Source: Panopea generosa
Taxonomy: Eukaryota; Mollusca; Bivalvia; Adapedonta; Hiatellidae
Reading direction: 5' to 3'
Assembly: GCA_029582155.1 (NCBI GenBank)
Contig: CM055901.1
Span: 47,117,228-47,181,227, forward strand
Length of the DNA stretch: 64,000 nucleotides
The position numbers were made by a program, and so were the translations under genes. Under the pieces are notes generated by a model. That model did no database searches and was not told where the DNA came from. It was given only the letters and a program-made list of their open reading frames with translations. Every line of letters begins with the position of its first letter. Position 1 is the first letter of the stretch. Shown here piece by piece: positions 3,840 through 64,000 of this stretch.

Positions 3840-4559
3840 GGGTTGTCTTAACAACTTCTGGATAAATATCCCCAACACACTCATATTGAACAAAAGTCAA
3901 TTGCTATAAAAAAAAGGAATACTTTAAATTTCCATACCATTCATTGGTAAAAAAAACATAGTCCCCGTACAGAACCCTTATCTTGATTGGTTAGAACTTC
4001 AATCACCCACTCTTATAATGAGCAGATATGCTTTAGATTTTAAACAGAACTTTTTTTTGAACACATTGATGCAAAAATGAAAAATTTCAGTTTTCCCTAT
4101 AATAGTCCTATGTATAAAAGGACTACCTTGCAGTATCCCTATATATCACAGCCCCTTGATTTGCAGAATCTTCAATCCATCACTAATGTAAGGATAATTT
4201 ATATCATATATTGGTATGAACCAGTTTAACAGAAAGGTTATTGAGAGGAAGATTTATGAAAATTCCCAATTTTGACCATATTGCCCCCTCCCCACCACCC
4301 ATAGTTCCTGCCCCTTATGGAAATTCAATCCTCATTATTGAACAAAAGAAAATTTACTGATATAAGACAATGCTTTAGATCTCAAACTGAACAACACATT
4401 TACATAAATGGGCGTAAAAATGAGAATTTTCCTTTTTCCCATTGTATTCCTATGTAAAACTAGAAGTTCCCTTACAGGGCCTCTATACATCCAAGTGCCC
4501 CTTGATATGTACAGATTTAGAACTATTAATCATTGGGATAATTTATAATCAAATATGAA
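3840..4559 (+). repeat. Long direct repeat of about 360 bp that hosts the transposon
   Basis: Two divergent units share blocks such as ATTGAACAAAAG, ATGCTTTAGAT, CCTATGTA and CCCCTTGATxTG, then GGATAATTTATA. The second unit breaks off at AAATATGAAC, exactly where the left terminal repeat of the transposon starts. Homology to the missing part of the unit resumes at 10349 (ACAGAG, then GAGATTTxTGAAAATxxxCAATTTTxACC). This is a near-empty-site comparison for the insertion. Confidence 0.65.
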
Positions 4560-4598
4560 CAAAGGGCTAGGTTCACGAGTAGCCAAAATCGGCCCAAT
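4560..4598 (+). repeat. Left terminal inverted repeat of the transposon
   Basis: 39 bp, an exact reverse complement of 10310-10348. The match stops sharply on both sides, as expected of element termini. AGGTTCACGAGTAGCC in the middle could be part of a transposase-binding site (inference). Confidence 0.9.
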
Positions 4599-5762
4599 AC
4601 ATTTACAAAATATAAAATAAACGGAACCTATAATATACCACTTGTTTGTTGTTGTTTGACACCTCAATGATCCAACCATATATAATATATTGTGTTGATT
4701 GTATGTTGTTGTATTTTATTGAACCCCAAATATACCCAATACTTAAGGAAATTGGCTATTTTCATGGATATTCAACCATTATTTATTGTTTTTTACATAG
4801 AGCGCATTCTTCGCCATTCTTGAAATTTTCCCCAACATTTACTGGTATTAAAACAAAACATGTACAGAAATATCTAGTATGGCGACACTTGCGCTCATAT
4901 TAAAATAATTAAAAAATCGTTCCCGAACCTGGTTGTTTCTTGCCTGTTTCCCGTTAAAACACACGTGATAGGAACACATAAATGCCAGTAATCCATTAGG
5001 AAAATGGAATCATACTATAAAAATGTTTGATCATTAAAAGTATTAATTATTAAGTGATTTGTTTCACGTGGTAGAAAAAAAAATCTTTTAATTTTGGGTG
5101 TTTTGCGTTGTTTTCCGCTCAATGGTCGATGTCGTCAATGCTTGGCGTCTGTAGCAACATGCGTTCATTCGGATATCACATATATCAGATATGGTTCGTT
5201 TTATTTCCAGGACATTTTATTTTCTTATTTAAAAAACTCCAAATTTATTATACGGCAGTGTTGATAAATGCTTACATGCATCACAACGTTAAACTTTCAA
5301 AGTGACCATTTTTTCATATAAAGATGTAATGTTCTGTTCGTCGTCAACGGAGTTTTGCGTTGAAACCTGGATGCTGTTTCGCCACATACATTTCAAGAAG
5401 GTATTTTTTTTTATTTTATGTGTGTAATACTATTAATTATTCAAAACGGTGTGAATACAGACTTATTTTGTTATTTTTATATTTTATTTAAATCGTACAA
5501 AAGGCAACATTTGCAACCATATATAGATTTATACAACGATGTAAAAGTACGAATAGGGTCGGGAGCGAATCTGAATGCTCGATGTATAATTCCGTCGATT
5601 TGAACAAGCAATTGCATTGTTTTCTATATTATTATTTTTTTTAATGGAAAGAACGATCCCAACCTAAAAAAAACAACAACAAAACAATCTGCAGAGCACA
5701 AGTTTAGTTTTTCGTTACTTGCTATTTTCATAAATAATAACTTGTTTTTTTGCTTATAGTTC

Positions 5763-5840
5763 TAAAGCGGCAGTAGCGTAGTGGTACCGTGTTTAATTAT
5801 AGACTGAAAGGTCTCAAGATCGAATCCCGTCACTGACAAT
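5763..5840 (+). promoter_or_regulatory. tRNA-like sequence with pol III box A and box B
   Basis: TAGCGTAGTGG (5774-5784) fits the box A consensus TRGYNNANNNG, and GATCGAATC (5818-5826) fits box B GWTCRANNC at every position. The spacing of about 33 bp is normal for a tRNA gene. The arms do not fold into a convincing cloverleaf, so this is probably a tRNA or SINE-head remnant. It lies just before the 3' splice-like tract TTTTTTTTTCTTTCAG and the transposase ATG, so it would fall in a 5'-UTR intron if that site is used. Whether it is transcribed is unknown. Confidence 0.5.
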
Positions 5841-5856
5841 TTTTTTTTCTTTCAGG

Positions 5857-8436
5857 ATGCCTGAGGGGAACAAAAAAGCATACAACTGCATTTTGTGCAG
5901 CAAAAGAACAAACCCCAAAAACAGACGACCAATGAATGTGTCGTTCAAATCTTTCCTAGCCACGAAGTTTTTAATAACTGCATCAGATAGGGACGTATTG
6001 TGTAATACCTGCAGACACAAATACTACATTGCAGAAACGAAGACCGTTAAACTAAATTCCAATTTGCAGCACGGCAATGACCTTACTGAACAAACGGATC
6101 CAGACTATGTACCGGAACAAACAGTTCGACAGCAGCAAAGGTCAGCTCAAATGGCCAGCCCACCGTCGATAGCAATGAATATTCCATCAACGCCAAAATC
6201 CCACTCTAGGTGTTTCATTTGTAAGCGACCTGGCCCAAAACTAGTTGTCATAGCATCAGATGCAAGATTTGCTGCGTTTTTGGAAAGTAATGTGATAATT
6301 GCTGCTGGATCTAGATGCTGTCCGGTGCACATCCAAGACCAGAAGTTGTTGTCTGCAGCTCTAAAAGATATGCCGATGCTTGCTACAACGTATCTCAACA
6401 GAAGTATGATATTGGATCTTTTATCCAGCATGAGGAACACGTGCCTACGGACAAATAATAGATTCAATTTTGATTCTCTCAATGATACAGAATATAACGA
6501 AACGACAGGTTTGAAAAGAGAGGATTTTGATGATCTTTGTACATTGGTAGATGGACACATACGTAACACGCCTTCCAGAAGTATTCGTACTACAGTTGGT
6601 ATATTCCTTTTAAAACTGAAGTCAGGGATGTCAAACAAATTAATAGGGACACTATTCGGTATATCAAAGTCTAGTATAAGGAGGGCCATCACATCTGTCC
6701 GACAGATCCTTATGAAAACATTCGTACGCAAACACTTGGGACTTCATCACATTGCAAGGGAAGTCTTAATAAATACCCACACACGCCCACTAGCACAGTC
6801 ATTGTTTGGGACCGATGAATCCGGTGAAGCTGCAAAATTAATTCTTGTGTTAGACGGTACTTATATATTTATACAGAAAAGCAACAATTTCCTTTTCCAG
6901 CGAAGGTCATACAGTATGCATAAGGGCAGACCACTTGTAAAGCCAATGGTAGTGGTGTCGACTGCAGGATATTTTGTAACAATTGTAGGTCCATATCTAT
7001 CGGACTCAAAAAACAACGATGCTAGAATACTAAACCACATGCTCATGACAAATATTGAAGATATTAAATCATACATACAGCCCGAAGATGTATTTATAGT
7101 TGACAGGGGATTTCGAGATGCTTTAGAATTGTTGGCGAACCTTGGAATAAAAGCCGAAATGCCATCGTTTATGACCAAGGGACAGAAGCAGATGCCAACT
7201 GAAGACGCAAACTCCAGCAGATTAGTTACAAAGGTAAGATTGACAGGCTACATATTTGTATTCAAATGTATACACATAGACGTAGGAGTCGGGGGCCGGG
7301 GGTGGGGTTTGTTTAGGTTGTAGGGGCCAGCATATACTTTGCCTCTATCTCAATATTTTACTATCTCCTCAGGCTGCCCCCACTTCCCCCAACCCCCAAT
7401 AATTGAAACGCTCCTACGCCCATGGTGCATGGTGTTGAGCAACAATTCATCCTGTTCGGTATATTATAAATAAGGATAATGTAACTTTATATATGTATTT
7501 ATTCGTATTATAATTCGTATCAATGGGATGCACGGCAATTGTCATGTTATTTCAATGTCCTCACTGAAAATTATTTACATGTATCTATATAATATAATGT
7601 CGATTTTAACATTGTCGCGAAACCCTTTAATTGAAAATATATATATATTTGTACTTAAATGACTTGTACAACGATTGATGTTGTTTTCGGTTTATTTACA
7701 ATAGATACGCTGGGTTGTCGAGTCTGCAAACGCCAGAATAAAACGTTGGAAATACCTAGACAGGGTTCTACCAACAAATCAAGTTCCTTACATTGGTGAT
7801 TATGTTAAAATAGTGTGTGCCATCTCAAACAAATACTTATCATCTCTGTGTTGTCCAGATAATGCGGATGAAGACAAACAGATAGCAGCACATATGTTAA
7901 AAATGTCAAAGCAAGTAAATGTCTTGAAATCCGAAATCGAAGACCGAAATCTTGAAAGACGGTCGACAATATGGAAAGCAGTAAGTGAAGTAGACCTTGA
8001 TCACTTCCCGAGATTAAGCGAGGATCAATTACGTTCTCTCACCTGTGGCGTGTATCAGCTTAAGTTAAGTTCAAGTTATGTGCAGGAACATTTAGATGGG
8101 AACTGCAATATTCAAATACACACAGAAGAGAGTGGTCTGATACGTGTTCGACTTCAGAGTCGTCATGTTTCGGCTAAACAGTACGTTTTGTGGTTAAGGT
8201 TCGACCCAACTGAAGTGACAGCGTGGTATTGTAAATGCAGGGCTGGTAGTCGCGTAGTGGGAGTATGTTCACATATTGCGTCAATTATATGGTATCTCGG
8301 ATACGCCAGATACCGGTATGTTGATACGAGAGGATTTGGTGTTCGCAATTGGGGCGAGAACTTGCTTGATGCAAGCAATATACCGGAAGCGATTGATGCT
8401 TTGGATTCTGGCAGCGAAGCTTGTGACTCAGACTAA
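5857..8436 (+). CDS. DDE transposase with N-terminal Cys clusters and C-terminal SWIM zinc finger (two exons)
   Basis: Predicted CDS joins 5857-7233 and 7705-8436 (702 residues). The start ATG follows a 3' splice-like CTTTCAG. The exon 1/2 junction is phase 0 (AAG^GTAAGA ... TACAATAG^ATA), and the frame runs on across it. Cluster 1: C11-x2-C14 with C49-x2-C52. Cluster 2: C119-x2-C122 with C154/C155 and H158. A helix-turn-helix region at about 248-290 (GMSNKLIGTLFGISKSSIRR) resembles HTH_Tnp_4. The catalytic triad is D333 (VLDGT), D416 (VDRGF) and E465 (VVESANARIKRWK), in the style of DDE_Tnp_4. E465 is supplied by exon 2, so splicing is needed for activity. SWIM: C635-x-C637-x9-C647-x-H649. 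It would bind the TIRs, excise and reinsert the element in the nucleus. The SWIM finger is known in MULE transposases but is not usual on this DDE type. No frameshift or stop is seen. Confidence 0.85.
7234..7704 (+). other. Intron of the transposase gene (471 bp)
   Basis: The donor is AAG^GTAAGA at 7234 and the acceptor TTTATTTACAATAG ends at 7704. Removing it joins D416 in exon 1 to E465 in exon 2 in phase 0. Without splicing, exon 1 reads 30 extra codons to a stop at 7321-7323 and lacks the catalytic glutamate and the SWIM finger. Retention would therefore give a truncated, probably inactive protein, a possible control point (inference). Confidence 0.8.
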
Positions 8437-8587
8437 CTGACAGTGTTGTTAGGATCTCTAAATAAGTATGACTCTGGAATCGAAGTTGTTTGTAACAAAC
8501 GTATATAACGTGCTATTTATCTGAAATAAAATCACTCAATTACCACCCTTTTGATCTGTAAATATTTGTTGTCGGCTTTTGGACAAA

Positions 8588-8775
8588 TACAGCAAAACCT
8601 GTATAAGCGGTCATCTCTATTAAGCAACCACTTGTGTTAAACAGCCATAATTGCTGTTTTTCATTCATATGCTTTCAGAGTAACTATATTTACCTATATT
8701 AAGCAATAGCCTGTCTTTAAATGCCACTTTTGCTGCTTCCCTTGATTGGTTTCTTAAGAAAGGTTTGACTGTTCG
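8588..8775 (+). mobile_element. MITE with CCTGT termini, nested in the transposon
   Basis: The left end AAAACCTGTATAAGCGGTCA and the right end AAGAAAGGTTTGACTGT are imperfect inverted repeats. The body (CTATTAAGCAACCACTTGT, CCACTTTTGCTGCTTCCCTT) matches copies at 20655-20832 and, partly and inverted, at 42243-42332. It lies in the 3' untranslated part of the larger transposon, so it arrived after that element's sequence was in place or travels with it. Confidence 0.65.
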
Positions 8776-10309
8776 CATTCCATAAATATGTATGAATATG
8801 CATATACTTAATTATTTTGCTACATTTGTGCTGTGTAAAGCGTGCAAGAGAAAGAATGCAATATTAGACATCGTTTTTGTAAATGGGTGTGTAAAAACGG
8901 TATAGTTTTAATAAGTTGATACCATGCGGCCGTTACAATTGTATTACTAAAATGACAGTGAAGTTATGGGACTTGCCGTCACTCGTCACCACGGCAGTAT
9001 AATTTTATAATGGATATATTTTAAACAGGAAATGCTAGTTTTATTGTGTGTGGAAGAACTCCGTTAAATATACATGGATTATACGGAATACCTGAATGGC
9101 TTCCCATCAATGCATTTCTTTTCATCTACAATTTCGTTTCACTATTTTGTGATAACTGCATAACATATTGTTTGTTTATTGTGTTGAAGTGTTGTTATAG
9201 CGTGTTGTTTTCGAATATTTAAAACTAGTATATATATGCAATATCAGATACATTCAGAGTGATTCATACTATAATATAAACGTCTGAGCAAAGTCAAATG
9301 ACATTTGTGTTGTTTCTTAATATCCGTCAGTTAGTCTTTTCATTTAATGGAATGCGTATTGTCAGAGACATAAAAACATGTAATTAAGTCATTGGTATTT
9401 TCCTTGTCACTCGTCAATCTTCACAGATGTGTTGGGCGATTAAAATGGCTTCTCCGTACAACATTCGCGAATGCGATATGATGCCGTATTAATAACGTAT
9501 TGGTATAGGTTTGTCAACAGTAATATCACGTTTAGCGTTCGGACACCGGACATAATTTACGAATATACTCTGATTATACATGAGTGTCAGGTGATTACTA
9601 AAGGACAATCACAATGTGTGTATATAATTCGTACAGTATTAAATTATATAATTTAGTAAAACGTACTAGAAAATCAGCTGTCTCTGTTTAATGCGTGTCA
9701 ATGTCAGAGGTCATGTATTATCTTGTATACATTTTTCGTCACTGTGCAAGTTGCTAAAATAGACTGTTCCTTAGATGAACATGCCAAATTCAATAAGTGA
9801 ACAGGCGGTACATTCAACCTCAGAAAAACAATATTCCTTTCAAGCGATCTTTTATCAAGCATAAGGAAACTTTTATCCAACGAGTGAATTTGCGGTTACG
9901 ACTTTATTACACGTCCTCACCAAAAGGTGCACACTAATACACACCTTGATTACCCCGTGTTGCGAGGTAGAGGTTAATAATTAGAACACGCTATGTAACA
10001 TAAACACGCGATTTTAATGGGCCGAAATATTGATTTTTCACTAAAATTAGTTATGAAACACGGATATGTCATCGAAATCAAAACAACGAAATAAAAAAAA
10101 TCCCAACGAAAATTAACTGAACGCCAATATCACGGCCGTTCACGACGTCATTTTGCGTACGTCGCCAAAAATAACGTGTTTTCTCCTTCGACACCATGTA
10201 TTAAAATTAACAGTGTTTACATAATATTATGTTATATAAAAAAACAGTACCAAATACAAAAAATAAATTGTTTCAAGATTCCATACATATAATCTTATCA
10301 ATTTTTGAG
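8776..10309 (+). other. 3' noncoding part of the transposon
   Basis: No second transposon gene, for example a nuclease partner, was recognised on either strand. The longest open frame is 61 codons and low complexity. The region is somewhat richer in CG than the surrounding DNA. Confidence 0.5.
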
Positions 10310-10348
10310 ATTGGGCCGATTTTGGCTACTCGTGAACCTAGCCCTTTG
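10310..10348 (-). repeat. Right terminal inverted repeat of the transposon
   Basis: An exact 39-bp inverted copy of 4560-4598. It is followed immediately by ACAGAGCAG, which aligns with the interrupted host repeat. Confidence 0.9.
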
Positions 10349-15078: not shown

Positions 15079-15373
15079 AACCGCAGCAATGGTCTAGGGG
15101 TAGAATGTCTGCCTCCCATGCAAAATGTTGTGGGTTTGATCACCAGCAGAGTCATACCAAAGACTTGAAAAATGGTACTAGAAGCTTTCACATTTGTTGC
15201 TCAGCATTTAGAGGATAGTTCTAGGTTTGATCTGCCTGTTGTCATTACAATGTGACAGGGTGAGGTATCATTCTATGTGACTGTGGCATGATACTCCAGT
15301 GTGGCAGCGCTTAGTATACTGTATATATAATTGAAATATTGCTGAAAGCATCGCTAAAACGCCATACAACAAC
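15079..15373 (+). mobile_element. tRNA-Gly-derived SINE, family 1, with 12-bp target duplication
   Basis: The head GCAATGGTCTAGGGGTAGAA is box A-like and resembles tRNA-Gly, with CTCCCATGC as a CCC anticodon-like loop. TGGGTTTGATCACC is box B. The body carries ACCAAAGACTTGAAAAATGG and GGCATGATACTCCAGTGTGG, shared with 29712-29992, 54804-55108 and 58296-58645. The tail is GCTAAAACGCCATACAACAA. The direct repeats TCAGCTTAAACT at 15067-15078 and 15374-15385 flank it exactly. The right copy of this duplication became part of the adjoining minisatellite. Confidence 0.85.
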
Positions 15374-17438
15374 TCAGCTTAAACTGGTAAACACTCCCTC
15401 GCTAAAACCCATTACAACAACTCAGCTTAAAGTGGTAAACTTCCTTGTTAAAACCCCATACAACAACTGAGCTTAAAGTGGTAAACTTCTTTGTTAAAAC
15501 CCCATACAACAACTCAGCTTAAACTGGTAAACTCCCTCACTTAAACCCCATACAACAACTCAACTTAAACTGGAAAAATTCCTCGCTAAAACCCCACACA
15601 ACAACTCAGCTTAAAGTGGTAAACTTCCTTGTTAAAACCCCACACAACAACTCAGCTTAAAGTGGTAAACTTCCTCACTAAAACCCCATACAACAACTCA
15701 GCTTGTACTGGTAAACTTCCTCACTAAAACCCCATACAACATCACTTACTCAGCTTAAAGTGGTATACTTCCTTGTTATAAAACCCCATACAACAACTCA
15801 GCTTAAATTGGCAGCTCCCTCGCTAAAACCCCATACAACAACTCAGCTTAAAGTGGTAAACTTCCTTGTTAAAACCCCATACAACAACTCAGCTTAAACT
15901 GGTAAACTTCCTTGTTAAAACCCCACACAACAACTCAGCTTAAAGTGGTAAACTTCCTTGTTAAAACCCCACACAACAACTCAGCTTAAAGTGGTAAACT
16001 TCCTTGTTAAAACCCCACACAACAACTCAGCTTAAAGTGGTAAACTTCCTCACTAAAACCCCATACAACAACTCAGCTTGTACTGGTAAACTTCCTCACT
16101 AAAACTCCATACAACAACTCAGTTTGTACTGGTAAGCTTCCTCACTAAAACCCCATACAACAACACTTACTCAGCTTAAAGTGGTATACTTCCTTGTTAA
16201 AACCCCATACAACAACTCAGCTTAAAGTGGTAAACTTCCTCACTAAAACCCCATACAACAACTCAGCTTGTACTGGTAAACTTCCTCACTAAAACCCCAT
16301 ACAACAACTCAGCTTGTACTGGTAAACTTCCTCACTAAAACCCCATACAACAACTCAGCTTGTACTGGTAAACTTCCTCACTAAAACCCCATACAACAAC
16401 TCAGCTTGTACTGGTAAGCTTCCTCACTAAAACCCCATACAACTCAGCTTAAACTGGTTAACTTCCTCGCTAAAACCTCATACAGCAACTCAGCTTAAAT
16501 TGGCAGCTCCCTCGCTAAAACCCCATACAACAACTCAGCTTAAAGTGGTAAACTTCTTTGTTAAAACCCCATACAACAACTCAGCTTAAACTGGTAAACT
16601 TCCTTGTTAAAACCCCACACAACAACTCAGCTTAAAGTGGTAAACTTCCTTGTTAAAACCCCACACAACAACTCAGCTTAAAGTGGTAAACTTCCTCACT
16701 AAAACCCCATACAACAACTCAGCTTGTACTGGTAAACTTCCTCACTAAAACCCCATACAACAACACTTACTCAGCTTAAAGTGGTATACTTCCTTGTTAA
16801 AACCCCATACAACAACTCAGCTTGAACTGGTAAACTTCCTTGTTAAAACCCCATACAACAACTCAGCTTAAACTGGTAAACTTCCTTGTTAAAACCCCAC
16901 ACAACAACTCAGCTTAAAGTGGTAAACTTCCTTGTTAAAACCCCACACAACAACTCAGCTTAAAGTGGTAAACTTCCTTGTTAAAATCCCCACACAACAA
17001 CTCAGCTTAAAGTGGTAAACTTCCTTGTTAAAACCCCACACAACAACTCAGCTTAAAGTGGTAAACTTCCTCACTAAAACCCCATACAACAACTCAGTTT
17101 GTACTGGTTAGGCTCTCACTAAAACCCCATACAACTCAGCTTAAACTGGTAAACTTCCTCGCTAAAACCTCATACAGCAACTCAGCTTAAATTGGCAGCT
17201 CCCTCGCTAAAACCCCATACAACAACTCAGCTTAAAGTGGTAAACTTCTTTGTTAAAACCCCATACAACAACTCAGCTTAAACTGGTAAACTTCCTTGTT
17301 AAAACCTCACACAACAACTCAGCTTTAAGTGGTAAACTTCCTTGTTAAAACCCCACACAACAACTCAGCTTAAAGTGGTTAACTTCCTCACTTAAAACCC
17401 CATACAACAACTCAGCTTGTACTGGTAAACTTCCTCAC
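15350..17438 (+). repeat. Minisatellite, about 43-bp unit, about 48 copies, with 692-bp higher-order period
   Basis: Each unit is GCTAAAACCCCATACAACAA, CTCAGCTTAAACT and GGTAAACTTCCT or a variant. These three parts are the SINE tail, the SINE target duplication and the flanking host DNA. The array thus began as a tandem duplication across the SINE 3' junction. The variant AATTGGCAGCTCCCTCGC recurs at 692-bp intervals (gcttaaat at 15801, 16493 and 17185), showing block duplication of about 16 units. It ends at the TTAA of the next element. Confidence 0.9.
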
Positions 17439-17499
17439 TTAAAGGGACACATGACAATGAACATTATTTTGAACATTTTGAAAAAGTATCTAAAAAATA

Positions 17500-30884: not shown

Positions 30885-32230
30885 CAGTAGAACCACCACA
30901 CCAACAAACTCATTGGTGCCTGAGATGTAAGGGTCTTGATAGATTTATCTCAGTAGAACCACCACACCAACAAACTCAGTGCTGCCTGAGATGTAAGGGG
31001 TCTTGACAGATTTATCTCAGTAGAACCACCATGCCAACAAACTCATTTATCTCAGTAGAACCACCACACCAACAAACTCAGTGGTGCCTGAGATGTAAGG
31101 GGTCTTGATAGATTTATCTCAGTAGAACCACCACACCAACAAACTCATTGGTGCCTGAGATGTAAGGGTCTTGATAGATTTATCTCAGTAGAACCACCAA
31201 GCCAACAAACTCAGTGGTGCCAGAGATGTAAGGGGTCTTGATAGATTTATCTCAGTAAAACCACCACACCAACAAACTCAGTGGTGCCTGAGATGTAAGG
31301 GGTCTTGATAGATTTATCTCAGTAGAACCACCACACCAACAAACTCATTGGTGCCTGAGATGTAAGGGTCTTGTTAGATTTATCTCAGTAGAACCACCAC
31401 GCCAACAAACTCATTGGTGCCTGAGATGTAAGGGTCTTGATAGATTTATCTCAGTAGAACCACCACACCAACAAACTCAGTGGTGCCTGAGATGTAAGGG
31501 GTCTTGATAGATTTATCTCAGTAGAACCACCATGCCAACAAACTCATTGGTGCCTGAGATGTAAGGGTCTTGATAGATTTAACTCAGCAGAACCACCACA
31601 CTAACAAACTCAGTGGTGCCTGAGATGTAAGGGGTCTTGATAGATTTATCTCAGTAGAACCACCACACCAGCAAACTCAGTGGTGCCTGAGATGTAAGGG
31701 GTCTTGATAGATTTATCTCAGTAGAACCAGCACACCAGTAAACTCAGTGGTGCCTGAGATGTAAGGGTCTTGATAGATTTATCTCAGTAGAACCACCACA
31801 GCAACAAACTCAGTGGTGCCTGAAATGTTAGGGGTCTTGATAGATTTATCTCAGTAGAACCACCACACCAACAAATTCATTGGTGCCAGAGATGTAAGGG
31901 TCTTGATAGATTTATCTCAGTAGAACCACCACACCAACAAACTCAGTGGCGCCTGAGATGTAAGGGTCTTGATAGATATATCTCAGTAGAACCACCACAC
32001 CAACAAACTCAGTTGTGCCTGAGATGTAAGGGGTTTTGATAGATTTATCTCAGTAGAACCACTACACCAACAAAGTCAGTAACAGGTGTCTGAGATGTAA
32101 GGGGTCTTGATAGATTTATCTCAGTAGAACCACCACACCAACAAACTCAGTCACAGGTGCTTGAGATGTAACAAACTTAGTGGTGCCCGAGATGTAAGGG
32201 GTCTTGATAGATTTATCTCAGAAGAACCAC
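30885..32230 (+). repeat. Minisatellite, 66-67-bp unit, about 20 copies, self-complementary
   Basis: The unit reads TCTCAGTAGAACCACCACAC, CAACAAACTCAGTGGTGCCT, GAGATGTAAGGGGTCTTGAT, AGATTTA. TCTCAG pairs with CTGAGA and CCACCAC with GTGGTG, so each unit can form a hairpin with a 13-base loop. Some units are shortened or carry insertions (31045, 32080, 32160). Confidence 0.9.
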
Positions 32231-34826: not shown

Positions 34827-36205
34827 ATGACAAATGCAATAAGGTACAGTTATTGTTTCAATGCCCATATCTGCTGCAAGAGACATGGTAAACCAGGAAG
34901 TGCTAGCTTCTCTTTTTTTACTTATGAGTTATGCACACATCCAGCATCTCTATTTGACACAGATGGTTTAATTCCGGTTGCTTATAAACCCCAACTTGCT
35001 GATGAAATTATGCAATCTGTTTGGAAACCAGCAATAACTGAAGGTTACCATGAGTCACAGTATGTCTTAGATGGCGAGTCTTCTTCAGATAACACCATGG
35101 AATCTTTGTGTAACAAATTAGGTGATTTTCCAACAATATATTGACTTCATTTTTAAGAATTTTGGCAGGAATGTTGTAATTGCGTTTGCTGGGTATCCAG
35201 ATGGTCCGTCAATAAAAGATACTGCACACTTGAGCAGAAATATTGGGTTACATCGGGAGCACCATTCACTTTACTGGTAACATGACCTTAAATATGAAAA
35301 AAGCAGTAATTCTTGCGCATTCGAAAATCAAGCAGCATTTTATTCACATGTTAAGCTAGCATTTATAATCAAATGCCATTAAATCCATCCATGCAGAAGC
35401 TTATGCTGATCTATAAGTAACCTACTGTGAAAACAAATGTGGAATGTGCAGTAGAAATTCAAACCATTGTGATAGGTGATGATACAGATATTCTTATATT
35501 ACTGTGCTATTACGCAAACTACAAGGATCACACTATTTTTTTTTTTAAACCAAGACCCAAAAAAATGCAAAAACGTAAAAATTCATGGAATATTCAAGAA
35601 ACAAAAGTGAATCTTGGTCCTGATGTTTGCAACAGTATTCTATTTATTCATGCAATACTAGGTTGTGATAACATCTCTCATATTTACGGCATTGGCAAAG
35701 CTGTAGCGCTATATAGTTTGAAACGAATGAATTATTTCATATGTGCTTTGGTGTTCAACAATGAAAACGCATCCAATAATGAAGGCATTGAAGCTGGGGT
35801 AAAAAACATAGTAGTTTTATACAATGTAAAAAGAAAGAAAACTTAAATTCCCTAAGAGTGAGCAGATTCTTCAAGAAAGTTGCCGTCAATGCTGTGTTAC
35901 CCACTACATTTGCCTTCAACATCTGAATCTGCAAAGAATGACAGTCTCAAAGTTTATCATCAAGCTCAGGTTTGGAAAGAAAACATTGATATTGGGGGTG
36001 GAAGATATCAAAGAGTAAGCTTTTAGCATTGCAAACAGAAAAATCACCTGCTCCTGACAGACTCCTGCAGATTATACATTACAAATGTAAAACTGATTGT
36101 CGAACTGGTCATTCATTGTAAGTGCAAAAAAGTATGGGTTAGATTGTTCACCAGAGTTTGGTGCATGTAGAGGGGCCAGCTGCCTCAATAGCTCATTAAT
36201 CCAGA
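34827..36205 (+). pseudogene. Broken copy of a multicopy invertebrate gene (GDDTD/GCD nuclease-like domain plus Cys-rich tail)
   Basis: Conserved blocks appear in order but in shifting frames: QLLFQ near 34851; YELCTHPASLFDTDGL within 34827-35144; VVIAFAGYPDGPSIKDTAHL in another frame at about 35175-35235; VIGDDTDILILL and FIHAILGCDNIS within the 139-codon frame 35427-35846; then SPAPDRLLQIIHYKCKTDC and YGLDCSPEFGACRGASC near 36050-36200, separated by stops. From memory this block order belongs to large unnamed invertebrate proteins. GDDTD...GCD resembles acidic motifs of FEN1/PIN-type nucleases, and the Cys tail resembles a CXC domain. Several frameshifts and in-frame stops show it is dead. 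Function and any transposon link are unknown. Confidence 0.65.
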
Positions 36206-44477: not shown

Positions 44478-44552
44478 AAAAACACTATAAAATTTGACAA
44501 GCAAGAAATGTTGCAGCTTTAGACAGGATGCATAACAAACTTGTGATATATC

Positions 44553-46657
44553 AGAGTTCAGAACACTTGTAACTCAAGTTGGTGGAATAGCAAATTTTAG
44601 GACAATTATAACTCAAGCTGGTGAAATGGAAGATTTCAGGACACTTGTAACACAAGCTGGTGAAATAACAGATGTCAGTATACTTGTAAGACAAGCTTGT
44701 GAAATAGCAATTTTCATAACACCTGTAACACAAGCTTATGAAATAGCAGATTTCAGTACACCTGTAACTCAAGCTGGTGAAATAGCAGATTTCAGGACAC
44801 TTTTAACTCAAGTTGGTTAAATAGCAAATTTCAAGACACATGTAACACAAGCTGGTGAAATAGCAGATTTCAGGACACTTGTAACACAAGATTGTGAAAT
44901 AACAGATTAACACAAGCTGGTGAAACAGCAGATTTCAGTTCACCTGTAACACAAACTTGTGAAATAGCAAATTTCAGTACACTTGTAACACAAGCTTGTG
45001 AAATAACAGATTTCAGTACGATTGTAACAAAAGAATGTGAAATAGCAACAGATTTCAGTACACTTGTAACACAAGCTTGTGAAATAACAGATTTCAGTAC
45101 TTGTAACTAAAGCTGGTGAAATAGTAGATTTCAGGACACTTTTAACACAAGCTTGTCAAATAACAGATTTCAGTACACTTGTAACACAAGCTTGTGAAAT
45201 AACAGATTTCAGTACACTTGTAATAAAAGCTTGTGAAATAGAAATTTTCATATCACCTGTAACACAAGCTGGTGAAACAACAGATTTCAGTACACTTGTA
45301 ACTGAAGCTTGAGAAATAGCAGATTTCAGTACACTTGTAACACAAGCTTGTGAAATAGCAATTTTCATAACACCTGTAACTCAAGCTGGTGAAATAGCAG
45401 ATTTAAGGACACTTGTAACTCAAGCTGGTTAAATAGCAAATTTCAGGACACTTGTAAAGCACATGCTGGTAAATTAACAGATAAACACAAGCTGGTGAAA
45501 CAGCAGATTTCAGTACACCTGTAACACAAACTTGTGAAATAGCAGATTTCAGTACACTTGTAACACAAGCTGGTGAAATAACAAATTTCAGTACGATTGT
45601 AACAAAAGAATGTGAAATAGCAACAGATTTCAGTACACTTGTAACACAAGCTTGTGAAATAACAGATTTCAGTATTTGTAACTCAAGCTTGTGAAATAGC
45701 AGATTTCAGGACAGTTGTAACACAAGCTTGTGAAATAATAGATTTCAGGACACATGTAACACAAGCTGGTGAAACAACAGATAAACACAATTTGGTGAAA
45801 CAGCAGATTTCAGTACACCTGTAACACAAACTTGTGAAATAGCAGATTTCAGGACACATGTAACACAAGCTGGTGAAATAACAGATAAACACAAGCTGGT
45901 GAAACAGCAGATTTCAGTACACCTGTAACACAAACTTGTGAAATAGCAGATTTCAGTACACTTGTAACACAAGCTTGTGAAATAACAGATTTCAGTAAGA
46001 TTGTAACAAAAGAATGTGAAACAGCAACAGATTTCAGTACACTTGTAACACAAGCTTGTGAAATAACAGATTTCAGTACTAGTAACTGAAGCTGTTGAAA
46101 TAGCAGATTTCAGGATACTTGTAACACAAACTTGTCAAATAACAGATTTCAGTACACTTGTAACACAAGCTTGTGAAATAGCAGATTTTAGTACACCTGT
46201 AACATAAACTTGTGAAATAGCAAATTTCAGTATACTTCTAACAAAAGCTTGCGAAATAGCAACATATTTCAGTACACTTGTAACACAAGATTGTGAAATA
46301 ACAGATTTCAGTTCACTTGTAACACAAGCTTGTGAAATAACAGATTTTAGTACACTTGTAATAAAAGCTTGAGAAATAGCAATTTTCATAGCACCTGTAA
46401 CACAAGCTTATGAAACAACAGATTTCAGTACACTTGTAACTGAAGCTTGAAAAATAGCAGAATCAGTACACTTGTAACACAAGCTGGTGAAAAAGCAGAT
46501 TACAGTACACTTGTATCACAAGCTTGTGAAATTGTAGATTTCAGTACACTTGTAACACAAGCTTGTGAAAAAGAAGAATTCAGAATTATTGTAACACAAG
46601 CTGGTGAAATAGCAGATTTCAGAACACTTGTAATACAAGCTGGTGAAATAGCATCAT
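44553..46657 (+). repeat. Minisatellite, about 39-bp unit, about 54 copies
   Basis: The unit is ACACTTGTAACACAAGCTTG plus TGAAATAACAGATTTCAGT with many variants. Segments such as ACAGATAAACACAAGCTGGT recur at 45478, 45778 and 45883, showing block duplications. The unit is a multiple of three, so long Cys/Tyr-rich and Ala/Ser-rich frames arise on both strands without being genes. Confidence 0.9.
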
Positions 46658-46824
46658 TTCATTGATGTATAAATAAATTATGTTGGGGTAAAGAGCTTTA
46701 TATTTGAACAGATATTTTCTCTGATTCACCAATGTTTATGCAAATATTCGTTAATTTCACTTATTTTAAATGTTTATATACATTATTAAATCTATCATGA
46801 CATTAATTTTGCTGTCTTAAAACA

Positions 46825-57415: not shown

Positions 57416-57478
57416 TTTATAACAGTCATATTTACATTGTTTCTGTAACAGTTACTATACTCTTACTTTCTTGTTCAG

Positions 57479-58066
57479 ATCAATGATGCAACTTACAGTA
57501 TAGACCCAGACCAGTTTGCGAGAGGCTGGCAGTCTACAACTTACAGTATAGACCCTGACCAGTTTGCGAGAGGCTGGCAGTCTACAACTTACAGTGTAAA
57601 CCCTGACCAGTTTGCGAGAGGCTGGCAGTCTACAACTTACAGTGTAGACCCAGACCAGTTTGCGAGAGGCTGGCAGTCTACCACTTACAGTGTAGACCCA
57701 GACCAGTTTGCGAGAGGCTGGCAGTCTACCACTTACAGTGTAGACCCAGACCAGTTTGCGAGAGGCTGGCAGTCTACAACTTACAGTGTAGACCCAGACC
57801 AGTTTGCGAGAGGCTGGCAGTCTACAACTTACAGTGTAGACCCAGACCAGTTTGCGAGAGGCTGGCAGTCTACAACTTACAGTGTAGACCCAGACCAGTT
57901 TGCGAGAGGCTGGCAGTCTACAACTTACAGTGTAGACCCAGACCAGTTTGGGAGAGGCTGGCAGTCTACAACTTACAGTGTAGACCCAGACCAGTTTGCG
58001 AGAGGCTGGCAGTCTACAACTTACAGTGTAGACCCAGATCAGTTTGTGAGGGGCTGGCAGTTTACA
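57479..58066 (+). CDS. Candidate exon encoding 12 tandem 16-residue repeats (48-bp minisatellite)
   Basis: A pyrimidine tract and acceptor (CTCTTACTTTCTTGTTCAG) end at 57478. In phase 0 the sequence then reads INDA, followed by 12 units of TYSVDPDQFARGWQST, of exactly 48 bp each (57491-58066). Two units have Ile at the fourth position and one has Asn at the fifth; one has Gly for Ala; the last is diverged (FVRGWQFT). No stop or frame shift occurs. The frame runs on to a stop at 58124-58126, but from about 58085 that sequence is a SINE, so a splice or alternative end is likely. The neighbouring 70-bp exon candidate ends in phase 0, consistent with joining. No protein family was recognised. A noncoding minisatellite remains possible: one minus-strand frame is also open. 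Confidence 0.35.
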
Positions 58067-58084
58067 TCTTCAGCTCCAAAGTTA

Positions 58085-58278
58085 ATTTTCTGTCAGTTTT
58101 ATTGGTGGAGAAAGACCTCAGAATGAACCCGAGTAGAACAATCATCATTCTGCAGGTGTAGTTTGCAAACTTTCTCACTAAAGTTTTTGTATCAAGCTGG
58201 GCTTGAATCCTCAACCTTCTTGGTGAGAGGTAAGTGGTCACTAGACCAAAGTGCCTTAGACCACTCGGGAAAAGAGTA
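58085..58278 (-). mobile_element. tRNA-Leu-like SINE, family 4, full-length head
   Basis: The minus strand begins CCGAGTGGTCTAAGGCACTT, a tRNA-Leu/Ser-type box A, and has GGTTGAGGATTCAAGCCC as box B, with a long variable-arm-like spacer. The body and tail (plus strand AGAAAGACCTCAGAATGAAC) match the other copies. This copy defines the orientation of the family. Confidence 0.75.
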
Positions 58279-58645: not shown

Positions 58646-59499
58646 AGTTCTGCCACTGTTAAGGATGTAAGAGATCATTTACTGTTACAAACTGTCATGC
58701 ATAGTTACCTTTCAGACACAAAGTAAGACTGTTACAACCAATTAAGGATACACTATGCACTGTGCTAACAGTACATTGTGTGTATGAAATATAGGTTATG
58801 CAAGATTTAATCATGAAAACAAGGACATAGGACACATTACTGATGTAACTATTAAATCACAATGGGTTTTGGGTTTCTTTAACCAACTGAGTTTGCAAGC
58901 TCACAGATTTAGTGCAGAATGGGTGGCCACTGGCTTTTCCACATAATCAGGTGTATATTGGGATTTCATGTTGTTTTTTTTTATAATTTTCTTATAAAGT
59001 GAAATTTTGTGTCTTATTTTATGGAAGAATGCAAACTTCAGTGTACATAAAATTGATTTGCAAGGCCTTCCCTTTACTTAGGTGAATTAGGGCCAAGGCT
59101 TTCAGAGGGGGAAATTTTAGCATTGTTTTCGTGTCACGTCGTCTGGTTATGCAGAAAAACTCATAGTATATGATTGTATAGCAAGAGTTAAAAAGAAGGG
59201 ACATTAACCTTACCAGTAACCAGACAATTCCCCCCATAAAAATAAAAAAAATTTTTTTAAAAAATTTCAGGGGTGAATTTTCAATGAAATTTGGGGGGAG
59301 GAATGGAAATGGGGCAGAATTTCGTAATGTCATTCCCAAAAATGGCCAAACAAGGGCCCTGATTGATAATGTTTAAACTATGCAGACATAATTTTACTGC
59401 CAACAATGGAGATAGTGAAAACACTTTTGTCCATTCATTTAAAGTAATGTAAATAAATTAAGTGCTGCTCAAAATATACAATGTTGCCGACTCATGAAA
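58646..59499. other. Unassigned stretch
   Basis: 59215-59345 is rich in homopolymers (CCCCCCATAAAAATAAAAAA). The 106-codon minus-strand frame 59019-59339 has no motif and spans these runs, so it is not called. Confidence 0.45.
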
Positions 59500-62400
59500 T
59501 AAAGTCAACTGTTGGTCTCATATATGTTTGTATTGTACACTAAACAACAAAATCTGCAGTGTTGCAGACTCATACAATAAAGTCAACTGTTTGACTCATA
59601 TATGTTTGTATTGTACACTAAACAACAAAATCTGCAGTGTTGCAGACTCATACAATAAAGTCAACTGCTTGTCTCATATATGTTTGTATTATACACTAAA
59701 CGACAAAATCTGCAGTGTTGCAGACTCATACGATAAAGTCAAACTACTTGTCTGATATAATTATGTTTGTATTGTACACTAAACAACAAAATCTGCAGTG
59801 TTGCAGACTCATACAATAAAGTCAACTGTTTGTCTCATATATGTTTGTATTGTACACTTCACGACAAAATCTGCAGTGTTGCAGACTCATACGATAAAGT
59901 CAAACTACTTGTCTGATATAATTATGTTTGTATTGTACACTACACGACAAAATCTGCAGTGTTGCAGACTCAAACAATAAAGTCAACAGTTTGTCTGATA
60001 TATGTTTGTATTGTACACTGAATGACAAAATCTACAGTGATGCACTCATACAATAAAGTCAACTGTTTGTCTCATATATGTTTGTATTGTACACTGAATG
60101 ACAAAATCTACAGTGATGCACTCATACAATAAAGTCAACTGTTTGTCTCATATATGTTTGTATTGTACACTGAATGACAAAATCTACAGTGTTGCTAACT
60201 CGTACAATAAAGTCAACAGTTCGTCTCATAAAGGTTTGTATTGTACACTGAATGACAAAATCTACAGTGATGCACTCATACAATAAAGTCAACAGTTCGT
60301 CTCATATATGTTTGTATTGTACACTGAATGACAAAATCTACAGTGATGCACTTTTACAATAAAGTCAACAGTTTGTCTCATATATGTTTGTATTGTACAC
60401 TGAATGACAAAATCTACAGAGTAGCTGACTCATACAATAAAGTCAACTGATGTCTCATATAGGTTTGTATTGTACACTGAATGACAAAATCTGCAGTGTT
60501 GCTGACTCATACAATAAAGTCAACAGTTTGTCTTATATAGGTTTGTATTGTACACTTAATGACAAAATCTACAGTGTTGTTGACTCATACAATAAAGTTA
60601 ACTGTTGTCTCATATAGGTTTGTATTGTACACTGAAAGACAAAATCTACAGTGTTGCTGACTCATACAATAAAGTCAACTGTTGTATATATAGGTTTGTA
60701 TTGTACACTGAATGACAAAATCTACAGTGTTGCTGACTGATACAATAAAGTCAACAGTTTGTCTCATATAGGTTTGTATTGTACACTGAATGACAAAATC
60801 TACAGTGTTGCTGACTCATACAATAAAGTCAACTGTTGTCTCATATAGGTTTGTATTGTACACTGAATGACAAAATCTACAGTGATGCACTCATACAATA
60901 AAGTCAACTGTTGTCTCATATAGGTTTGTATTGTACACTGCTTTGACAAAATCTGCAGTGTTGCTGACTCATACAATAAAGTCAACTGTTTGTCTCATAT
61001 AGGTTTGTATTGTACACTGAATGACAAAATCTACAGTGAAGCACTCATACAATAAAGTCAACTGTTGTCTCATATAGGTTTGTATTGTACACTGAATGGC
61101 AAAATCTACAGTGATGCACTCATACAATAAAGTCAACAGTTTGTCTCATATAGGTTTATATTGTACACTGAATGACAAAATCTGCAGTGTTGGTGACTGA
61201 TACAATAAAGTCAACTGTTTGTCTCATATATGTTTGTATTGTACACTGAATGACAAAATCTACAGTGATGCATTCATGCAATAAAGTCAACAGTCTGCCT
61301 CATATATGTTTGTATTGTACACTGAATGACAAAATCTGCAGTGTTGCTGACTCATAAAATAAAGTCAGCTGTTTATCTCATATAGGTTTGTATTGTACAC
61401 TGAATGACAAAGTATACAGTGTTGCTGACTCATACAATAAAGTCAACTGTTGTATATATAGGTTTGTATTGTACACTGAATGACAAAATCTACAGTGTTG
61501 CTGACTGATACAATAAAGTCAACAGTTTGTCTCATATAGGTTTGTATTGTACACTGAATGACAAAATCTACAGTGTTGCTGACTCATACAATAAAGTCAA
61601 CTGTTGTCTCATATAGGTTTGTATTGTACACTGAATGACAAAATCTACAGTGATGCACTCATACAATAAAGTCAACTGTTTGTCTCATATATGTTTGTAT
61701 TGTACACTGAATGACAAAATCTGCAGAGTTGCTGACTAATACAATAAAGTCAACTGTTGTCTCATATAGGTTTGTATTGTACACTGCTTTGACAAAATCT
61801 GCAGTGTTGCTGACTCATACAATAAAGTCAACTGTTTGTCTCATATAGGTTTGTATTGTACACTGAATGACAAAATCTACAGTGATGCACTCATACAATA
61901 AAGTCAACTGTTGTCTCATATAGGTTTGTATTGTACACTGAATGGCAAAATCTACAGTGATGCACTCATACAATAAAGTCAACAGTTTGTCTCATATAGG
62001 TTTATATTGTACACTGAATGACAAAATCTGCAGTGTTGGTGACTGATACAATAAAGTCAACTGTTTGTCTCATATATGTTTGTATTGTACACTGAATGAC
62101 AAAATCTACAGTGATGCACTCATGCAATAAAGTCAACAGTCTGTCTCATATATGTTTGTATTGTACACTGAATGACAAAATCTACAGTGATGCTGACTCA
62201 TACAATAAAGTCAACTGTTTGTCTCATATATGTTTGTATTGTACACTGAATGACAAAATCTACAGTGATGCTGACTCATACAATAAAGTCAACAGTCTGT
62301 CTCATATATGTTTGTATTGTACACTGAATGACAAAATCTACAGTGATGCACTCATACAATAAAGTCAACTGTTGTCTCATATAGGTTTGTATTGTACACT

Positions 62401-64000
62401 GAATGACAAAATCTACAGTGATGCACTCATACAATAAAGTCAACAGTCTGTCTCATATATGTTTGTATTGTACACTGAATGACAAAATCTACAGTGTTGC
62501 TGACTCATAAAATAAAGTCAACTGTTTGTTTCATATATGTTTGTATTGTACACTGAATGACAAAATATACAGTGATGCACTCATACAATAAAGTCAACAG
62601 TTTGTCTCATATAGGTTTGTATTGTACACTGAATTACAAAATCTACAGTGATGCTGACTCATACAATAAAGTCAACTGTTTCTCTCATATATGTTTGTAT
62701 TGTACACTGAATGACAAAATCTACAGTGATGCACTCATACAATAAAGTCAACTGTTTGTCTCATATATGTTTGTATTGTACACTGAATGACAAAATCTAC
62801 AGTGATGAACTCATACAATAAAATCAACAGTTTGTCTCATATATGTTTGTATTGTACACTGAATGACAAAATCTACAGTGTTGCTGACTGATACAATAAA
62901 GTCAACTGTTTGTCTCATATATGTTTGTATTGTACACTGAATGACAAAATCTACAGTGATGCACTCATACAATAAAGTCAACAGTTTGTCTCATATAGGT
63001 TTGTATTGTACACTGAATGACAAAATCTACAGTGATGCACTCATACCATAAATTCAACTGTTTGTCTCATATATGTTTGTATTGTACACTGAATGACAAA
63101 ATCTACAGTGATGCACTCATACAATAAAGTCAAAAGTTTGTCTCATATAGGTTTGTATTGTACAAATAAATGACAAAATCTACAGTGTTGCTGACTCATA
63201 CAATAAAGTCACCTGTTTGTCTCATATAGGTTTGTATTGTACACTGAATGACAAAATCTACAGTGATGCACTCATACAATAAAGTCAACAGTTTGTCTCA
63301 TATGTTTGTATTGTACACTGAATGACAAAATTACAGTGATGCACTCATACAATAAAGTCAACTGTTTTGTCTCATATATGTTTGTATTGTACACTGAATG
63401 ACAAAATCTACAGTGATGCATTCATACAATAAAGTCAACTGTTTGTCTCATATATGTTTGTATTGTACACTGAATGACAAAATCTACAGTGTTGCTGACT
63501 CATACAATAAAGTCAACTGTTTGTCTCATATAGGTTTGTATTGTACACTGAATGATAAAATCTACAGTGATGCACTCATACAATAAAGTCAACAGTTTGT
63601 CTCATATAGGTTTGTATTGTACACTGAATGACAAAATCTACAGTGATGCACTCATACAATAAAGTCAACTGTTTGTCTCATATATGTTTGTATTGTACAC
63701 TGAATGACAAAATCTACAGTGATGCACTCACACAATAAAGTCAACTGTTTGTCTCATATATGTTTGTATTGTACACTGAATGACAAAATCTACAGTGTTG
63801 ATAACTCATACAATAAAGTCAACAGTTCGTCTCATATATGTTTGTATTGTACACTGAATGACAAAATCTGCAGTGTTGCTGACTGATACAATAAAGTCAA
63901 CAGTTTGTCTCATATAGGTTTGTATTGTACACTGAATGACAAAATCTGCAGAGTTGCTGACTCATACAATAAAGTCAACTGTAGTCTCATATAGGTTTGT
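59500..64000 (+). repeat. Long minisatellite, 75-79-bp unit, about 58 copies, running off the window
   Basis: The unit contains TTTGTATTGTACACTGAATG, ACAAAATCTACAGTGATGCA, CTCATACAATAAAGTCAACT and GTTTGTCTCATATA. Two main monomer forms alternate irregularly: a short form with GATGCACTC and a longer one with GTTGCTGACTC. The left 500 bp use an older form (ACTAAACAACAAAATCTGCA). A block of 11 monomers is duplicated at an exact 846-bp spacing. The 60-88 codon frames are array artefacts. Confidence 0.95.

Follow-up and report, generated by a model that had tools for sequence, protein, structure and literature searches.

A probable Spy-type DNA transposon, with its empty target site nearby, in the genome of the bivalve Panopea generosa

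The 64,000-nucleotide stretch of the Panopea generosa genome analysed here (the window) carries an autonomous-looking, cut-and-paste DNA transposon that probably represents a new family of Spy, a group of the PHIS superfamily. This assignment rests on the insertion signature (AAA|TTT, without duplication), the single gene, the size, and the HTH and DDE layout, all of which correspond to the published description of Spy. The original prediction had recognized an autonomous-looking transposon with an IS5/Harbinger-type DDE core, and the ends, the gene and the Pfam-matched core all agree with it; its view that the domain order could be assigned to no standard named superfamily gives way to the Spy features listed above.

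The inverted ends (4560-4598 and 10310-10348) are complementary at 39 of 39 bases, with 5711 nt separating the arms. The first 25 bases of the inverted end, searched window-wide with at most three mismatches, match two places, both of them these known ends (mean of 0 in 100 shuffles). The perfect 39-bp TIRs that had been predicted stand as a match of letters, but the empty site described below indicates that the outermost 4 bp on either side most likely belong to the target, leaving TIRs of 35 bp (Table 1). The intact ORF and the identical ends suggest that mobility may have been recent.

Table 1. Coordinates of the element, its gene and the surrounding host repeat within the window.
Feature	Position	Strand	Basis
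Transposon proper, 5781 bp	4564..10344	+	TIRs and empty-site comparison
Left TIR, 35 bp, start GGGCTAGG	4564..4598	+	
Right TIR, 35 bp	10310..10344	-	
CAAA, most likely left half of target site	4560..4563	+	k = 4 best among symmetric splits (k = 0..7), 4/4 scoring schemes
TTTG, most likely right half of target site	10345..10348	+	Empty-site comparison
Transposase exon 1, residues 1-459 (CxxC clusters, HTH, D333, D416)	5857..7233	+	
GT-AG intron, 471 bp, inferred from sequence	7234..7704	+	
Transposase exon 2, residues 460-702 and stop (E465, SWIM-like CKCx9CSH)	7705..8436	+	
AATAAA, possible polyadenylation signal, starting 89 bases past stop	8525..8530	+	
Uninterrupted paralogous host repeat copy, equivalent to empty site	4028..4283	+	blastn of joined flanks
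Left flank, host repeat unit broken by element	4370..4559	+	Direct repeats D2 / D9, spacing 342; alignment

In the left flank, a host repeat recurs at an interval of 342 bases (direct repeats D2 and D9); the element occupies its second unit, and the first is uninterrupted. Compared by blastn with this first unit, the joined flanks produce an alignment that crosses the junction (67% over 262 columns, E = 1.4e-13). In the empty unit, TATGAACCAGTTTAACAGA (4215-4233) corresponds to the insertion site; the flanks joined with CAAA and TTTG read TATGAACAAATTTGACAGA, which agrees with TATGAACCAGTTTAACAGA at 16 of 19 bases, paired base for base, with a 6-base alignment gap immediately left of the insertion site. 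The empty-site copy fits insertion at AAA|TTT without duplication, within CAAATTTG.

Candidate joins of the flanks were scored under four schemes, each of which ranks the 4-bp split, alone, at the top of the symmetric joins. Scheme 1 gives 163 to the join that counts 4 bp per end as target. Without duplication, a 39-bp TIR reaches 147; when a duplication of 1-12 bp is assumed, scores are 130-144 for the 39-bp TIR and 143-156 for the 35-bp TIR. In 4 of 4 schemes the 35-bp TIR without duplication outscores every one of these alternatives. In right-flank controls, none of 500 decoys reached 163 (largest 118), and the largest score among 500 shuffled flanks was 125. When all joins up to 10 bases from each 39-bp boundary are admitted, the 4-bp join retains the top score in all four schemes, but shares it with 2, 4, 7 and 2 asymmetric joins, respectively, the tied joins keeping 8 target bases in two schemes and 8-12 in the other two. 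The choice of the symmetric 4-bp split therefore draws on TIR symmetry, as alignment alone does not fix the cut; with repeat units only 67% alike, certainty to a single base derives from symmetry and alignment together, on the boundary evidence of one insertion and one empty site.

Flanking k-mers are identical for no k from 2 to 12 at either the 39-bp or the 35-bp boundary. The flanks of the 39-bp TIRs share a single base (A/A), so that k-mers alone are compatible with a 1-bp duplication. The flanking 2-mers are AA/AC (39-bp boundary) or AA/TT (35-bp boundary), with 2-bp duplication joins scoring 141 or 153 vs. 163; the 3-mers are GAA/ACA or AAA/TTT, with 3-bp duplication joins scoring 138 and 150 vs. 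163; and the 9- to 12-mers are alike at only 1 to 5 positions. As published Spy elements make no duplication, this absence is diagnostic rather than a fault. Target sites described for the PHIS groups are TWA for PIF/Harbinger, AT for ISL2EU, ANT for Pangu, CWG for NuwaI and TNA for NuwaII, and AAATTT, without duplication, for Spy (PMC4482050). PIF/Harbinger, NuwaI, NuwaII and Pangu were rejected as assignments, no 3-bp duplication of TWA, CWG, TNA or ANT having been found.

The transposase gene runs from an ATG at 5857 to a stop codon at 8434-8436, and its GT-AG borders define a spliced product of 702 aa without internal stops; a single spliced, stop-free transposase gene had been predicted, as had the triad D333, D416 and E465, whose residues occupy those places in the spliced protein. 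The intron is supported by the effect of splicing on the match to DDE_Tnp_4, in which two part-matches of the unspliced sequence (6.8e-8 and 1.3e-4) merge into one full-length match (E = 8.3e-19, 158 of 158 profile positions, above cut-off). The element holds 29 open stretches of at least 50 codons, two of which contain the exons; the other 27 span at most 89 codons, apart from two (198 and 128 codons) that lie antisense to the transposase. No second gene was seen, and the 13 of these 27 stretches that were scanned gave no Pfam match above cut-off.

Just ahead of the transposase ATG lies a tRNA-like stretch (5773-5831), with matches to A-box (TAGCGTAGTGG, at 5774) and B-box (GATCGAATC, at 5818) consensus patterns; a T-rich run and then CAG come after it. 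The Rfam tRNA model scores 13.2 bits on this stretch (E = 6.3), below the cut-off of 29; ARAGORN found no tRNA, and Rfam at gathering scores returned nothing. The stretch could derive from the head of a SINE and now serve as 5' leader or as source of a splice acceptor, or the resemblance could be due to chance.

Four Pfam families match the spliced protein: DDE_Tnp_4, the family of Harbinger-type transposases, and DDE_Tnp_1 (E = 1.4e-7), both above cut-off, along with HTH_Tnp_4 (1.6e-4, 21.6 bits vs. a cut-off of 27) and HTH_28 (0.069), both below. The full-length DDE_Tnp_4 match bears out the DDE core named in the original prediction; the HTH proposed there finds its counterpart in HTH_Tnp_4, but this match is weak and falls under the curated cut-off. 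The Cys clusters are present, as CxxC pairs at residues 11, 49 and 119. Aligned with each other, the two N-terminal zinc clusters score 38, a value reached by 5 of 2000 shuffles, which is weak evidence that they form a repeat. Neither the whole transposase nor the excised clusters match THAP in Pfam. AlphaFold models of each exon alone, built without an alignment, have mean pLDDT values of 35.2 and 34.7, and a search of the PDB by sequence with exon 1 alone yielded nothing meaningful (6 matches, the best being talin, E = 0.11).

Toward the C-terminus, the SWIM-type sequence CKCRAGSRVVGVCSH (residues 635-649) fits the pattern CxCx(6-25)CxH; of 5000 shuffled versions of the transposase, 29 contain a match of this form. 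Of the SWIM finger originally predicted, the motif itself (CxCx9CxH) stands, but no match to Pfam SWIM was obtained with the whole protein or an excised 97-residue tail (E≤10); at this motif level, a SWIM domain is plausible but unproven.

Published accounts, insofar as they describe these properties, place the element within the Spy range. Intact Spy elements measure 1165-5910 bp with TIRs of 5-691 bp, the transposases of five tested elements have ∼700 aa, AAA and TTT flank most elements, and new insertions in human cells show no duplication (PMC11304231); the element, which measures 5781 bp, has TIRs of 35 bp and encodes a product of 702 aa, fits all of the size ranges. Two ORFs are present in most PHIS groups, but Spy has a single one (PMC4482050), which in most Spy elements encodes DDE and HTH (PMC9179366). 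Here the insertion most likely falls within AAA|TTT, the exact split depending in part on TIR symmetry; target-site duplication is absent for k = 2-12 at both boundaries; and a single transposase ORF combines DDE with an HTH that remains below cut-off, on a scan covering 13 of the 27 other open stretches. Four Spy elements have been described from four mollusc species (PMC11304231), and in the curation of bivalve elements the duplication requirement was waived for the Spy group (PMC10294476).

The closest competitor, which we consider unlikely, is an AT-duplicating ISL2EU element whose YqaJ gene has been lost or has decayed. The two groups are sister clades (PMC11304231), Repbase places Spy under ISL2EU (PMC12730594), and the ISL2EU group shares the DDE type, with TIRs that usually begin with GG (PMC4482050). 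Against this reading, AT is not duplicated and the 2-bp joins score below the duplication-free join; YqaJ is matched by none of the open stretches scanned, 13 of the 27 outside the exons, a result that would also accommodate a decayed relic; and THAP is absent from the whole protein and the clusters.

The SWIM-like tail raises two further readings. It is possible, if doubtful, that the element belongs to a Spy sub-lineage or sister group marked by N-terminal zinc clusters, a C-terminal SWIM finger and duplication-free insertion at the palindromic CAAATTTG, in which a PHIS transposase would have gained, or always had, a SWIM tail otherwise known from MULEs. Even less probable than an ISL2EU origin is a separate, undescribed PHIS lineage that combines DDE with SWIM and arrived independently at duplication-free AAA|TTT insertion. 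In favor of such a lineage, the term SWIM does not occur in the main text of PMC11304231, PMC12730594, PMC4482050 or PMC9179366, and the matched portions of the literature joining SWIM with Harbinger, DDE_Tnp_4, ISL2EU or Spy hold no link to a transposase of this kind (SWIM there refers to swimming crabs, a swim bladder virus and plant proteins derived from MULEs); however, the target-site and coding features that were tested equal those of Spy, and SWIM is present only at the level of a motif. A domesticated host gene between relic ends, to which the long intact ORF might point, is very improbable, given that the two ends agree over all 35 bp, an identity that mutation would presumably have eroded in an old relic, and that the boundary inside a host repeat appears clean.

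If the element is indeed a Spy transposon, its HTH would bind the element ends, perhaps, at a guess, together with the N-terminal zinc clusters. By analogy with the family, the DDE core would make double-strand cuts at the element tips and join the ends within AAA|TTT at positions directly opposite each other; opposed joining would leave no gap to fill, and hence no duplication. The SWIM-like tail might conceivably add a contact to DNA or protein. In human cells, four donor plasmids whose Spy TIRs were short (15-167 bp) are reported as inactive, short-TIR donors failing even when UTRs were included (PMC11304231), and TIRs of 35 bp may for this reason be insufficient for activity.

Searches for relatives yielded no confirmed match: 11 pattern-matching stretches in viral contigs (whole 702 aa) and 69 in prokaryote genomes (exon 1 only) were not confirmed, the 477-residue exon-1 frame matched nothing in phages and plasmids, and a 21-bp TIR pattern occurred 0 times in viral contigs and 0 times in genome contigs. 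These misses say little, as the collections comprise viruses, plasmids and prokaryotes.

Elsewhere in the window, an open stretch of 141 codons (35421-35843, + strand; IVIGDDTDILILLCYYA ... ILFIHAILGCDNISHIYGIGKAVAL) has no Pfam match and may resemble a kind of protein found in invertebrate genome repeats. A satellite array (59470-64000; ∼76-bp units, ∼59 copies) extends to the end of the window, and further arrays have units of 46 bp (15351-17443), 67 bp (31045-32151) and 117 bp, the last containing a 39-bp sub-unit (44535-46661). The region 57449-58158, in which a 48-bp unit is repeated 12.1 times in tandem (57489-58070), is open in two + frames and one - frame; because its repeat unit is divisible by three, this array can stay open without being a gene.

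The element is otherwise an ordinary and well-explained one, with a neat, in-place empty site within the same window. Two of five Spy transposases tested, one of them from oyster, are described as active in human cells, and published Spy elements are scarce in molluscs (PMC11304231); with an intact new family, there would be more natural Spy transposases to choose from. Should the SWIM-like tail prove to be shared, it would be a component whose role in target choice or in joining without duplication could be tested.

Among known systems, MULE / Mutator elements resemble the transposon in pairing DDE with a SWIM finger, as judged from MULE-derived plant proteins (PMC8616336). In contrast to MULEs, its core is DDE_Tnp_4 / DDE_Tnp_1, and MULE membership was rejected, with no MULE profile among the four Pfam families and no duplication of the 9-12 bp given for MULEs (PMC11304231). 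NuwaI has the same DDE type and TIRs that usually start with GGG (PMC4482050), but would be expected to show a CWG duplication and a Myb/SANT second gene, whereas no 3-bp duplication or second gene was seen here. ISL2EU is likewise similar in DDE type and TIR start, and differs in the AT duplication and YqaJ second gene expected there, neither of which was found, the scan for YqaJ covering 13 of the 27 other open stretches. Spy elements such as cvSpy (Crassostrea virginica) and cgSpy (Colletes gigas) (PMC11304231) were compared by their published descriptions. The transposon departs from these in having two exons, where the papers speak of one ORF, and in its SWIM-like tail, which the main texts searched do not mention; it agrees with them in AAA/TTT insertion without duplication, a single gene of ∼700 aa encoding a DNA-binding domain and DDE, overall size and TIR range, and in its occurrence in Mollusca, from which the group is already known (PMC11304231).
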